This document shows positions 32,454-37,271 of a DNA stretch of 64,000 nucleotides, piece by piece. How positions within the stretch are numbered: the stretch's first letter is position 1; each line of letters opens with the position of its first letter. This DNA comes from Kineobactrum salinum (GTDB lineage: Bacteria > Pseudomonadota > Gammaproteobacteria > Pseudomonadales > Halieaceae). Below the pieces are notes generated by a model. It had not been told where the DNA came from. It ran no database searches and saw nothing but the letters and a program-made list of their open reading frames with translations. Both the position numbers and the translations under genes were made by a program. The stretch is from NCBI RefSeq assembly GCF_010669285.1, contig NZ_CP048711.1, forward strand, positions 3,596,001-3,660,000, in the 5' to 3' direction.

Positions 32454-34490
32454 TTATTGCACAACCAGCATCGCCCTCAGTGAATCCAGCCCAGGCGTGT
32501 TGGCGTATCCCGCGCAACTGGAGACCGCCTGTTCGAAGGCCCGCAGTGCCCGCTCGGGGCGCCCATGCTGCAACCAGGCTTTTGCCAGCCGGATCGCCGG
32601 ACCTGGCTCAAGAATGGTCGCCGAGGCAGCCTCCATGTCAGCCACGATATGCTCCCGTGCCGTGACAGGTACCTGCTCTGGAACCAGTTGCTGCAGCATC
32701 GTGTAATAATAGCCGCGCGACGCGCGATCAGCGGGTGTACCAATGCCCTGGAGAACGTCGCGTTCGGCGATTTCCGCCGCCTTCACAAAAGCCCTCACAG
32801 CCGCCGCGGAGGCGCCGTTGTGCAGATAGGAGTCGGCGAGATTGCCCCACATCTCGTGAATTTCGGGCTGTCCGACTGCGCTGAGGTTGTCGATGGCGCG
32901 CTGGCGCAGCTGCGCTGATCCTGCGTAATCGGCCTGTAGGTACAACAGCATGCCGAGGAACTCATCACCGACATAGGACTGCGGCGCAATATCGCGGGCT
33001 CGCTCATAGGCGAGCCGCGCCTGGGTCAGGTTGTTGGCACAGAAATAAAACGTACCCAGATTGGCCAGGATGAACTCGTTCTCTTCGCGCCCGCGAGCCT
33101 CCTCCGCGCTTGCAATTGCAGCGCCGATGTCGCCAGCAGTATATTCCAGGGTCGCCAACCAGAATGGCGGCTTCCAGAAGTCCGGGGCGGCGACCGTCGC
33201 CTGGGTAGCTGCGGCTCTGGCCGCTTCGAGATCAGCCGGATTCCCATCCCTGTGGAACAACTGCAGCAGCGTCACTGCCATATCCAACAGCGCCGCCGCA
33301 TCCCGTGGATTTCCTGTCAGCAGAATCCCGTAGCTATCCAAGGCTTCTTCGAGACGGCCGGTGACACGGAGAAAATGGGCCTGGGCGAGGCGGGTGGCTG
33401 GCGCCGTGGGTGCAAGCTGCAGCGCCCGGTTGCAGGCCTGGGCGGCATCCGCCAGCGCGCGTTGCGCCTCCTCCATCCAGTATTCCTCCAGCAAGGCCCG
33501 GCACAGGCCTGCATGGGCATCGGCATAATCGGGGTCCTGGCGCAGGGCGGCCTCGAAGCGGCTCTGTGCGCGCAGGACATTGAGTTCGCTGGCGGGACCG
33601 TCCAGGTGCGCCAGGCCTTCGAGATAGTAATCCTGGGCCGTTGCTGCGGGAAAGTACAGGGGCCACTCATCGTCTCCGGCTGCTGGCACCCCCAGTCGAT
33701 CGGCGATGGCGCGAGCGGCATTGGCCGCGATGCCCAGCCGATTTTCGTCGAGTTCAATAGTGGGCACGGTTTCGGCCCAGACCTGCGCGCGCACACTGCC
33801 TGTGTATAGATAAATACGCACTGCGCTGTAGCGTCCCACAGTGAGTAATTCACCCTCCACGACCGCCTGCACCCGCAGCCGCTGCGCTACCGCGTCCGCT
33901 TCGAGATCGTGGGTCAGCACGGTAGCAGTGGGAGAGGACAGCGTATACTGCTGGTCGAGGTACAGCCGCAGGGCAGCGGTTAGTTGATCGTCGCTGTCAC
34001 CGGCGATGGGATGCAGGGCGAGGGTTGGTGGGCCGGGGTCCAGCAGTGAGATGGCCGTAGCGGCGATGGTTCGGGAATCGGAGGCGGTGGAGTCCTGTTG
34101 TACCCACCACAGGCCCGCGAACCCAAGCAGCAGGAGCAGCAAGCCGACACCGATATGCCACCGGCCAATTCTGGCTGGCCGAGGTGCTGGGGTTGTGTGC
34201 CCGGGGCCGCCAGCCGACGCCGGCTCGGGTTCATCGGCGGTCTTGTACAGCTCCCAGGCGTCAACACCCAGTGCCCGTGCTACTCGTTCAAGCGTCGGCA
34301 GCTCCACCGGCTGCTCGCGAAACACCCTGCTGACCACGTCCTTGGGTGCCTGGGCAAGGCCCTCGAGGTCGGCCATGCTTTCCGCCAACGCTGCCTGGGT
34401 CTTGAACCCTGCTGCGGTCAGGGCCCGATACAACCGGGTTCGCGAGGCGCGAATGCCGCGCCTGCGACTGGGCTGTTCCCGGTTTGACAT
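32454..34490 (-). CDS. membrane-anchored XRE-like HTH regulator with periplasmic TPR domain
   Basis: Protein of 678 residues. The ATG at 34490 follows AGGAG at about 11 bases; the frame is open 23 codons further up. Residues 20-82 resemble an XRE-type helix-turn-helix (GFKTQAALAESM, VVSRVFREQ, LPTLERVARALGVDAWELYK). One membrane helix follows at about 112-130. The middle region (about 150-280) resembles the segment before the TPRs in CadC-like and cyclase-TPR proteins (VVEGELL..., VRIYLYTGSVRAQVWAE). From about residue 300 to the end there are multiple TPR-like units. This layout parallels ToxR/CadC one-component membrane regulators but with an XRE-type DNA-binding domain. A TATATT -10-like element lies on its strand at 34540-34545. 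It is divergent from the exported-protein operon at 34692 and may control it. Confidence 0.72.
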   Translation of the reverse strand: MSNREQPSRRRGIRASRTRLYRALTAAGFKTQAALAESMADLEGLAQAPKDVVSRVFREQPVELPTLERVARALGVDAWELYKTADEPEPASAGGPGHTTPAPRPARIGRWHIGVGLLLLLLGFAGLWWVQQDSTASDSRTIAATAISLLDPGPPTLALHPIAGDSDDQLTAALRLYLDQQYTLSSPTATVLTHDLEADAVAQRLRVQAVVEGELLTVGRYSAVRIYLYTGSVRAQVWAETVPTIELDENRLGIAANAARAIADRLGVPAAGDDEWPLYFPAATAQDYYLEGLAHLDGPASELNVLRAQSRFEAALRQDPDYADAHAGLCRALLEEYWMEEAQRALADAAQACNRALQLAPTAPATRLAQAHFLRVTGRLEEALDSYGILLTGNPRDAAALLDMAVTLLQLFHRDGNPADLEAARAAATQATVAAPDFWKPPFWLATLEYTAGDIGAAIASAEEARGREENEFILANLGTFYFCANNLTQARLAYERARDIAPQSYVGDEFLGMLLYLQADYAGSAQLRQRAIDNLSAVGQPEIHEMWGNLADSYLHNGASAAAVRAFVKAAEIAERDVLQGIGTPADRASRGYYYTMLQQLVPEQVPVTAREHIVADMEAASATILEPGPAIRLAKAWLQHGRPERALRAFEQAVSSCAGYANTPGLDSLRAMLVVQ

Positions 34491-34691
34491 GTGTCGAGCA
34501 CACTCCTGTTGCCGGTCGAACACCGATTCTTTGGAACACAATATAACACAGCGGATCATTCGCGCATGCGCGTGGCGGTGGCTCTTATCTGTCCTTAACC
34601 ATCCCTATTTAGCATTAGTTGTCGATGTATTTGCGGGCCTGACGCGCGATGCTTGAGGGCGTGTACCAATTGAACCCGCGGGGGGTGAACA

Positions 34692-35687
34692 ATGAGAATG
34701 ACCAGGTTTTTGGGGTACTGCCAGCTGACGTTGCTGGCAACCGTTCTGATGGTCGGATGCGGTTCTTCCGGGGAGCCTGAGGCTGCTGAAGCACCACCGC
34801 AGGCCGGGGAGGGCCGGAACAGTGAGACCGAGCCGACAGTTGAGGATACCGCCGATCGCTGCCCTCCGGTCCTGTCTACCCCCGCTCCCGCAGCCGGTCA
34901 GGCCGTCGACGACATTGTCGGGGTGCGCCCGGGGCAGAGTTTCGATGACGTCCATGCTCGGCTCGGTTGCCGGGAAGAGGGTTATACCCTGGAGGTGGCG
35001 TCGCGCTGGGTTATTCGCGACACGGGCGATCTGCCCACCCGCCAGGTGCTGCGCGCCACCAACGGGGTTGCCTGCAGCGGCCAGGAGATTGCGCGCGACA
35101 TGGGTTCGATAGCGGGAAACCAGCGCTGCATCGGTGGTTTTAGCGGGTCCAATTTTCGCGCCGTACGCGATGCCACGGACGAGGTCTACGTGGGCTTTAC
35201 CGGCATGTTCGGGCAGGAAATCGCCGGCGCAGTCTGGCGCAGCCGCAGTTATCCGGAGGATGCGAGGCCCAGTGTCGACAAACTCGAGCAGGCCTTGATC
35301 GACAAATATGGCGAACCCAGCCATCGCGAGGAAATGCGCCTGCACAACTGGGGTATGCGCAAAGGGGACATTTCGCTGAACTGGGTGTACGACCTGCGCG
35401 GTCGCAGAGTCAGCGCGGAGAATCCGCAATACCAGCAGTGCCTGACCATCAGTCCGGCTTTCTCCGGTACGCACCGCTGGTCGGGCAGTTGTGGCACCGT
35501 GGTGCGCGCTGGTATAGCCAAATACCACGGCAATGACCTGCTGGTAGACCGTTTCGATATTGGCGTAATGGATCAGAAGGCCTTCTACGAAGGTGGCGAG
35601 CGCTTCAAGGCCGAGCTGGCGGCGGCGCTCGAACAGCAACGTCAGGACGCTGCCCGCGAGGCAGCGGCAGTGATGCCGGATCTGTAG
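34692..35687 (+). CDS. uncharacterised lipoprotein with GxRxGxxF/KYGxP motif pair
   Basis: Protein of 331 residues with lipobox MVGC (Cys23) after a hydrophobic signal, then a Glu/Pro-rich linker to about residue 60. Residues 76-90 read GVRPGQSFDDVHARL and 197-210 KLEQALIDKYGEPS; the same pair recurs in the third gene of this operon (266-residue protein). Several further cysteines (57, 93, 128, 146) could form periplasmic disulfides. The C-terminus is a charged helix (AALEQQRQDAAREAAA). No known family is recognised. GGGGTG precedes the ATG by about 5 bases. It is first of three co-directional genes divergent from the HTH-TPR regulator. Confidence 0.75.
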   Translation: MRMTRFLGYCQLTLLATVLMVGCGSSGEPEAAEAPPQAGEGRNSETEPTVEDTADRCPPVLSTPAPAAGQAVDDIVGVRPGQSFDDVHARLGCREEGYTLEVASRWVIRDTGDLPTRQVLRATNGVACSGQEIARDMGSIAGNQRCIGGFSGSNFRAVRDATDEVYVGFTGMFGQEIAGAVWRSRSYPEDARPSVDKLEQALIDKYGEPSHREEMRLHNWGMRKGDISLNWVYDLRGRRVSAENPQYQQCLTISPAFSGTHRWSGSCGTVVRAGIAKYHGNDLLVDRFDIGVMDQKAFYEGGERFKAELAAALEQQRQDAAREAAAVMPDL

Positions 35688-35700
35688 GGAGATTTCAGCG

Positions 35701-36471
35701 ATGCGATTGGTAACTTTGGTACTGTCTGGCTGTCTTGCCACCGCCTGTGGTGGTGGCGACCAGGCAGCAGCTGCTGGGTCTTCTACGCCAAAGGCCTCCA
35801 CCGCCGGCCCGGAGGCAGTGTCACCGACAGGCCGGCAACGTAGCCGCCGGCTGGGGGAGTTTGATGCGGAAGCCCTGTTCTGGGCCATGTACCACTGGGC
35901 GGATGTGGTCCCGCCAATACGGGAATGGTTGGAACCCGGCCTGCGTCAGGCGGCGAGCCAACGGGGCGAGATCGTCGACGAATTCTTCGATCAGGAAGCA
36001 TTCCTGGACACCCTGGTGGCAGAACTGGAAGCCCCCTATCAGGCGGCCGGAGATATCGGTTATGTCCACGCCACCGTGCGCGGTAAACTGGGGCCCTACG
36101 ACGCCCAGTTCGAGGAACTCTATATCGAGCCCTTTGCTCCCGGCAGCGGTTTGCGCGCTTATTTCGAGCCTGTGCAGCGGGAAGCCACCGTACGCCTGGT
36201 GAACGCGCTGGATGCCTATGCCTGGGTGTTGCCTCCCGAGCAGGCACAGGCGGTACTGTCGTCCCTGGGACTACAGATGGGGCGACAGATTTTGGTAGAG
36301 ATGGAACTGCGGCTTACCGGGGCCAGCGTGGATGCCCATTCAGGTAGTGGCCAACTCGACGCCGAGATTCTCAGCTATAAATTGTTCGAAAACCTGGCCG
36401 AGAGCCGGGGCCGACTGCTGCACGAGGCGGTCGTGCTTGAGCCCTCAGCCTCCGGGGAGTCTACCCTGTGA
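35701..36471 (+). CDS. uncharacterised lipoprotein
   Basis: Protein of 256 residues. Two candidate lipidation sites: LSGC (Cys11, good motif but short signal) and ATAC (Cys16). A low-complexity Ala/Ser/Pro linker runs to about residue 45, then a mostly helical domain rich in acidic residues (FDAEALFWAMYHWADVVPP, EEFDQEAFL-like segments). No enzyme motif or known family is recognised. It lies 13 bases after the 331-residue lipoprotein and overlaps the next start (TGATG), so the three are translationally linked. Confidence 0.7.
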   Translation: MRLVTLVLSGCLATACGGGDQAAAAGSSTPKASTAGPEAVSPTGRQRSRRLGEFDAEALFWAMYHWADVVPPIREWLEPGLRQAASQRGEIVDEFFDQEAFLDTLVAELEAPYQAAGDIGYVHATVRGKLGPYDAQFEELYIEPFAPGSGLRAYFEPVQREATVRLVNALDAYAWVLPPEQAQAVLSSLGLQMGRQILVEMELRLTGASVDAHSGSGQLDAEILSYKLFENLAESRGRLLHEAVVLEPSASGESTL

Positions 36472-37271
36472 TGCCCGGCAGCTCGCTGGTGCTTCTGCTC
36501 ACCGTTTTGCTGTCGCAACTGGTGCAGGCAGAGGAGTCCCGGCCTGACATTCTCGGAATACGTTTGGGTGATACCTTTGAAACTGTAGCAGCCAGGCTCA
36601 GAGCACACTATCCACCCGCATTTATTCAGGAAGTGCCCGGTGACATCGGTAACATAGAGGGCTCGCTGTTGCAGGGCCTGCCCTACCGTGGGCGGGTGAG
36701 TGCGGCGCTGAACCGCCACGGCCGTGCGCGGCACGGTGCGGGCACCGATACTATCGTGGCCTACGGGCTGGCCCCGCCGAGCGACGGGCAGGTCGTCATT
36801 GTCTATCGCAGGGTGAACCTGCAGCAGTCGCTGCCGGCGGCAACACTGCGGCAAATGCTGGAGGAAAAGTATGGGCCGCCTCTGGTTGAAGATGCTGGCG
36901 ACAGCCGTGGCGGTGGCCAGCAGTATCGCCTGTTCCAGATGCTGTCCTGGTCCAGGGATGTCGGCGGCCAGCCGCTTGCTGCCGAGGCAGCACGACGCTG
37001 CAGCGCCGAACGTACCGGGCATCTGTTGTCGCTGCAGATGCGCCCCGACAGTTATGGCAAGCACAGCCACTGTGGCTTCATCCTGGCTGTATTCCTGGAG
37101 CAGGGCGAACACGTGCAGCAATACAGTACGCTGCTCTACGACGCCAATATGATCCGGGCAGGGAACGCGCGCACCGTGGCCTATGCCCGGGCCGAGGCGG
37201 AGCGGATTGCCGCCGAGCGCGCCGACCAGGAGCGTGAAGCGGCTGCCGGTGCCGAGCGACCCAAGTTGTAG
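36471..37271 (+). CDS. uncharacterised exported protein sharing motif pair with the 331-residue lipoprotein
   Basis: Protein of 266 residues from ATG 36471, which overlaps the previous stop; the GTG one codon earlier is less likely. A signal peptide (MPGSSLVLLLTVLLSQLVQA) gives a soluble periplasmic product. Residues 29-43 read GIRLGDTFETVAARL and 125-138 TLRQMLEEKYGPPL, matching the pair in the operon's first protein, so the two probably contain one homologous domain. Two cysteines lie in the C-terminal half. The C-terminus is a charged Ala/Glu/Arg helix, as in the first protein. Function unknown. Confidence 0.72.
   Translation: MPGSSLVLLLTVLLSQLVQAEESRPDILGIRLGDTFETVAARLRAHYPPAFIQEVPGDIGNIEGSLLQGLPYRGRVSAALNRHGRARHGAGTDTIVAYGLAPPSDGQVVIVYRRVNLQQSLPAATLRQMLEEKYGPPLVEDAGDSRGGGQQYRLFQMLSWSRDVGGQPLAAEAARRCSAERTGHLLSLQMRPDSYGKHSHCGFILAVFLEQGEHVQQYSTLLYDANMIRAGNARTVAYARAEAERIAAERADQEREAAAGAERPKL

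Follow-up and report, generated by a model that had tools for sequence, protein, structure and literature searches.

Here, we describe a locus in the 64,000-nucleotide stretch of Kineobactrum salinum DNA analysed (the window) that we judge rather probably to be a self-contained envelope-response switch of the CadC/ToxR kind, in which a membrane regulator with an XRE head controls a divergent operon of exported proteins. The general design, a transmembrane one-component regulator of the CadC plan, is already known. What is new is the combination of an XRE head with a TolB/TPR body, a dedicated candidate operator, and uncharacterised exported cargo.

Architecture and distribution of the locus

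An earlier note had described a 678-residue HTH-TM-TPR protein encoded divergently, across 201 bp, from a tightly coupled operon for two lipoproteins and one secreted protein, and the reading frames bear this out (Table 1). The regulator gene and LP1 are separated by 201 bp, LP1 and LP2 by 13 bp, and LP2 and SP3 overlap by 4 bp. By eye, LP1 and LP2 each carry a lipobox-like cysteine followed by glycine, a feature kept in their orthologues, with an atypical residue at position -3 in the window copies, while SP3 carries a signal peptide. A 701-residue form of the regulator starting at 34559 is unlikely; orthologue starts are equivalent to the methionine at 34490, and the extension would contain the conserved TGTGTTATA (34550-34542), which lies 51 bp before that ATG.

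Table 1. Coordinates of the genes, predicted domains and putative regulatory elements in the window.
Feature	Position	Strand	Basis
Regulator gene, HTH-TM-TPR, 678 aa	32454..34490	-	ORF, ATG 34490; 13 homologues, 27-63% overall identity
Cro/C1 (XRE)-like HTH, residues 13-88, lengthened helix 2-3 turn	34227..34454	-	AF2 model, Foldseek and VIA matches, alignment A4
Single TM helix, residues 112-130	34101..34157	-	Hydropathy, 14 homologues
TolB-like alpha/beta region, approximate limits, predicted periplasmic	33696..34043	-	Profile alignment to TolB/TPR proteins
TPR domain, predicted periplasmic	32511..33650	-	Pfam TPR_1/TPR_16/TPR_19 above cut-off
Extended -10-like element TGTGTTATA of regulator gene	34542..34550	-	Conserved position
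Putative operator, CATCGACA and after it four units with TA, spaced exactly 10 bp apart	34580..34627	-	Intergenic comparison, profiles, shuffles
LP1, lipoprotein, 331 aa	34692..35687	+	Orthologues in L054 (58% identity) and L062 (29%)
LP2, lipoprotein, 256 aa, DUF4852-like	35701..36471	+	Orthologues in L054 and L062; profile match to DUF4852-like domains
SP3, secreted protein, 267 aa, LP1 paralogue	36468..37271	+	Profile comparison; AF2 model

In 97 relatives and in plasmids, LP1 was found only as the window copy, so close relatives could not settle conservation, and the regulator itself is rare within the order (2 of 390 sampled genomes). We scanned an alignment of the window HTH and that of a same-family homologue, L005 (54% identical over the HTH), against one genome per species from 84,980 species. 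The regulator gene is present at thirteen loci, in gammaproteobacterial MAGs that include Woeseiaceae and Lysobacterales; one of them, L061, is the same contig as L005, and a further copy (L065) lies at a contig end. Seven homologues (L051-L057) exceed 50% identity overall, with HTHs 72-77% identical to that of the window. Nearly all supporting genomes are MAGs, and with L051, L053 and L054 closely similar, there are fewer independent copies than the count suggests.

The genes flanking the module show no synteny among the loci compared. In the window, a DUF2959 lipoprotein gene (window:37409-38050) follows SP3 on the same strand after 137 bp and is widespread in relatives that lack the module. 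The GC3 of the module genes (window:32454-37271) is 0.68-0.72, against 0.75-0.87 in three neighbouring genes, which hints at a separate history or looser selection.

A predicted Cro/C1 head on a TolB/TPR body

The AlphaFold2 model of the regulator head (pLDDT 86.7) has the five helices of the Cro/C1 fold and matches the Cro/C1 regulators VanUg, NHTF, C.AhdI and 434 Cro in Foldseek with probabilities of 0.9-1.0 and TMt of about 0.58-0.68; the Foldseek E-values exceed 0.001 and are evidence at the level of the fold only. VIA aligned the model to SinR with Z 8.3 and to 434 Cro with Z 7.2. No HTH family reached its curated Pfam cut-off (HTH_26 gave 15.5 bits against 22 for the window protein), and membership in the XRE class therefore rests on the fold. 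HTH_3 matched one homologue at E 0.059, and the HTH profile gave no convincing sequence relative in the PDB. In typical Cro/C1 members the turn between helices 2 and 3 is shorter than in this domain. On these predictions, the XRE-like head proposed in the earlier note holds up. The winged OmpR/CadC-type HTH was also sought, and the regulator gave no Pfam match to Trans_reg_C.

By hydropathy, the TM helix occupies the identical position in 14 of 14 homologues, with a positively charged cytoplasmic flank. From this helix through the TPRs, profile alignment shows homology (P 100%, E 4e-47) to the family's common TolB/TPR membrane proteins (L006-L027), which have other N-termini and no such HTH. 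On this homology, the regulator seems to be a TolB/TPR sensor body that has gained an XRE head. In the homologue alignments, conservation is highest in the HTH. A second TPR membrane protein of the family (L004:922-3072) has an HTH-like N-terminus that is clearly different. A transmembrane transcription regulator (TTR) is defined by a predicted DNA-binding domain and at least one TM region (PMC10269533), and the regulator has both in its HTH model and TM helix. The comparison with the topology of CadC and ToxR in the earlier note is likewise supported: a cytoplasmic HTH, a single TM helix, and a predicted periplasmic body of TolB-like and TPR domains.

A 10-bp-phased site between the divergent genes

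The intergenic region contains a conserved site, CATCGACA-NCTA followed by units 10 bp apart, which is present in the window and in eight relatives. The nine aligned copies share CATCGACA.CTA, TA at columns 11-12, 21-22 and 31-32, and T at column 41. With a unit scored as (T/C/A)TA, at least three consecutive units at 10 bp occur in 9 of 14 intergenic gaps, and dinucleotide shuffles gave a mean of 0.035 loci and a maximum of 1 over 1000 rounds. At periods of 6-9 and 11-14 bp, none of the 14 gaps held three or more units. L051, L053 and L054 share the block and score two units because GTA stands at the third position. The site is degenerate in L056, L060, L061 and L062, absent in L063, and absent at cargo-like loci without the regulator. 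Its distance to either start codon varies between loci.

Searched with a profile of the nine sites, the entire 4.65-Mb genome gives a single match, at this gap (E 7.6e-8, a rough value, as are those that follow). Because the window site had contributed to that profile, a second was built from the other eight; its sole match was again the window site, with E 0.0015 over the 64 kb and E 0.11 over the whole genome.

The array might belong to another factor, for instance as an alternative-sigma promoter, with the HTH binding protein as in RodZ, a known membrane protein with an XRE-like HTH and a role in cell shape (PMC6946637). A promoter element could indeed account for the conserved CATCGACA block, but the site goes with the regulator gene, and at the loci with the most divergent HTHs (L060, L061 and L063) it is degenerate or lacking. 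The strict spacing of 10 bp fits an array of DNA-binding domains, and the RodZ-type HTH_25 does not appear in the list of 14 Pfam families that any HTH of alignment A4 matched at E<=10. We consider this explanation improbable.

Proposed direction of regulation

In nearly all homologues, the regulator start is preceded at 49-55 bp by an extended -10-like element, TGTGnTATA. There is no sigma-70 consensus promoter near the operon start, which is compatible with an activator, and the centre of the array lies about 88 bp before the LP1 start codon; for these two reasons, activation of the operon is weakly favoured. Repression is plausible, above all of the regulator's own promoter in L055, L058 and L062, where the array lies 2-5 bp from the -10-like element and would block it. 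Many Cro/C1 proteins repress, and the fold would suit a regulator that shuts one or both divergent promoters until an envelope signal releases it, with no partner protein sensed. In the window, L051, L053 and L054, however, the array ends 35 bp before the -10-like element, and the missing sigma-70 consensus at the operon also speaks against such a repressor, which we regard as rather unlikely.

In the activating switch that we favour, the regulator would be placed in the inner membrane, and several HTH copies would lie side by side on one face of the DNA, on the direct-repeat array between the divergent promoters. It would thereby control the exported-protein operon, most likely by activation, and perhaps itself too, while the periplasmic TolB-like/TPR body would read an envelope signal or an exported partner. 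We infer all three of HTH binding to the site, the direction of regulation and the signal.

Exported proteins and variable cargo

The earlier note held that the exported proteins lack recognisable families. LP1, LP2 and SP3 do match no Pfam or NCBIfam family at E<=1, but in the light of profile comparison the statement is too strong. Homology between LP1 and SP3 extends over most of both proteins (P 97.2%, E 4e-11), and LP2 is homologous to the DUF4852-like domains of proteins in L051, L053 and L055 (P 97.2%, E 3.6e-11). LP2 has no direct match to PF16144; one of the latter proteins scores 20.7 bits, where the cut-off is 22.8. With the paralogues LP1 and SP3 as one family and the DUF4852-like LP2 as the other, the three exported proteins represent two families.

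The AF2 model of SP3 (pLDDT 74.9) has no convincing solved relative in Foldseek or VIA (best Foldseek E 0.02, TM 0.17). VIA aligned it to YjgB with Z 6.8 and to BLIP-I with Z 3.8, and neither LP1 nor SP3 has a Pfam match to SmpA/BamE-like or BLIP-like families. The SP3, LP1 and sLP profiles (sLP is introduced below) gave no convincing sequence relatives in the PDB, and PHROGs and PADLOC returned nothing significant for LP1, LP2, SP3, sLP or the L051 fusion. Searches for SP3 and LP2 in relatives gave one real, partial SP3 relative (L029), the rest being noise. No mention of DUF4852 or DUF5640 was found in the literature searched.

By the earlier note, its proposal would fall if regulator and operon did not occur together in relatives. 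They do: regulator and LP1-LP2-SP3 are found again as a four-gene set in L054 and L062, and a divergent gene stands beside the regulator in 12 of the 13 homologues. The cargo itself is modular and differs among relatives. Its most constant member, beside nine regulator homologues, is sLP, a small lipoprotein of about 97 residues with a sub-threshold DUF5640 match, which was not found in the window's own genome or in 37 relatives in a search run without a positive control. L054 and L062 carry sLP-LP1-LP2-SP3. In L051 and L053, sLP is accompanied by an exported protein of about 700 residues (L051:5402-7513 and L053:5336-7453) whose SP3-like N-terminus is fused to a pair of DUF4852-like domains, so that a single gene links SP3 and LP2. 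In L055 the cargo is an exported protein with two DUF4852-like domains, sLP and a VirD4/TraG-like protein; L052 and L057 carry sLP, a VirD4/TraG-like protein and a coiled-coil protein, and L056 (a short contig) and L059 carry sLP. The divergent genes of L058, L060 and L061 are unrelated to LP1, LP2 or SP3, and L063 has no close divergent gene.

The VirD4/TraG-like coupling-protein genes follow sLP on the same strand (L052:5324-7390, L055:3013-5145 and L057:5168-7357); that of L057 matches PF02534 at E 1.6e-67. In the three loci, a gene for a coiled-coil protein of about 300 residues comes next. The divergent gene of L058 (L058:7391-7774) encodes a double zinc-ribbon protein with a hydrophobic segment and adjoins a well preserved four-unit site, and that of L060 (L060:4506-7808) encodes a predicted surface protein of 1100 residues, repetitive in sequence. 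At L070 (L070:5331-6408), in another genome of the class that lacks the regulator, sLP-like and SP3-like genes lie side by side; cargo can therefore exist apart from it.

Because the genes, their order and the intergenic site are kept in other genomes, a chance arrangement is excluded. Regulator and operon could still be adjacent and functionally unrelated, as the other cargo of L058, L060 and L061 and the pair in L070 might suggest. Against this, the divergent pairing with LP1-LP2-SP3 or sLP is repeated over wide divergence with the conserved site between, which makes mere adjacency very improbable.

Changing cargo would also be expected of a defence or competition cassette with immunity-like exported proteins. 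The VirD4/TraG-like protein beside sLP in three loci is in keeping with this, as are weak alignments of the SP3 model to the immunity proteins RhsI1 (Z 5.2) and TplEi (Z 4.4), although unrelated matches score in the same range. Beside the operon we saw no toxin, PADLOC did not match the window cargo, and we hold such a cassette to be a long shot.

Comparison with known systems

CadC has a cytoplasmic N-terminal HTH, one TM helix, a periplasmic alpha/beta domain and then a TPR-type helical domain (PMC9214523). Compared with CadC as described there, the regulator is predicted to share this body plan, the alpha/beta and TPR parts by homology to TolB/TPR proteins, and it has a local putative target operon. 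It differs in its Cro/C1-like head, where CadC has a winged one of the OmpR/CadC type, and in an operon for exported proteins instead of a decarboxylase and an antiporter. ToxR and TcpP bind direct repeats with periods of 10 and 11 bp (PMC4829181) and are likewise membrane-anchored with sites of about 10-bp direct repeats, but they have a winged HTH and no TPR body, and the array here has up to four units and the CATCGACA block. VtrA/VtrC pairs a membrane-tethered transcription factor genetically with a small periplasmic protein (PMC9214523); there the partner gene overlaps or adjoins downstream, whereas the exported genes here are divergent, and sLP, the small partner in relatives, was not found in this genome.

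DNA-binding domains of many types occur in known transmembrane regulators (PMC10269533). In the literature searched we found none that joins an XRE head to a membrane TPR body, which does not prove that there is none. The locus may tentatively stand for a hitherto undescribed family of transmembrane one-component regulators in which XRE heads bind head-to-tail arrays of 10-bp direct repeats and divergent, variable exported cargo feeds back on the TPR sensor. For Cro/C1 proteins, inverted repeats are the usual targets.

If the proposed switch is correct, the CadC/ToxR design would be modular, its winged head swappable for one of the phage-repressor type with a tandem 10-bp operator kept. With one genomic site and one operon, the locus would offer a simple test case of how a regulator held in the membrane locates its DNA; it would also give a handle on the role of the DUF4852-like and LP1/SP3 envelope proteins.
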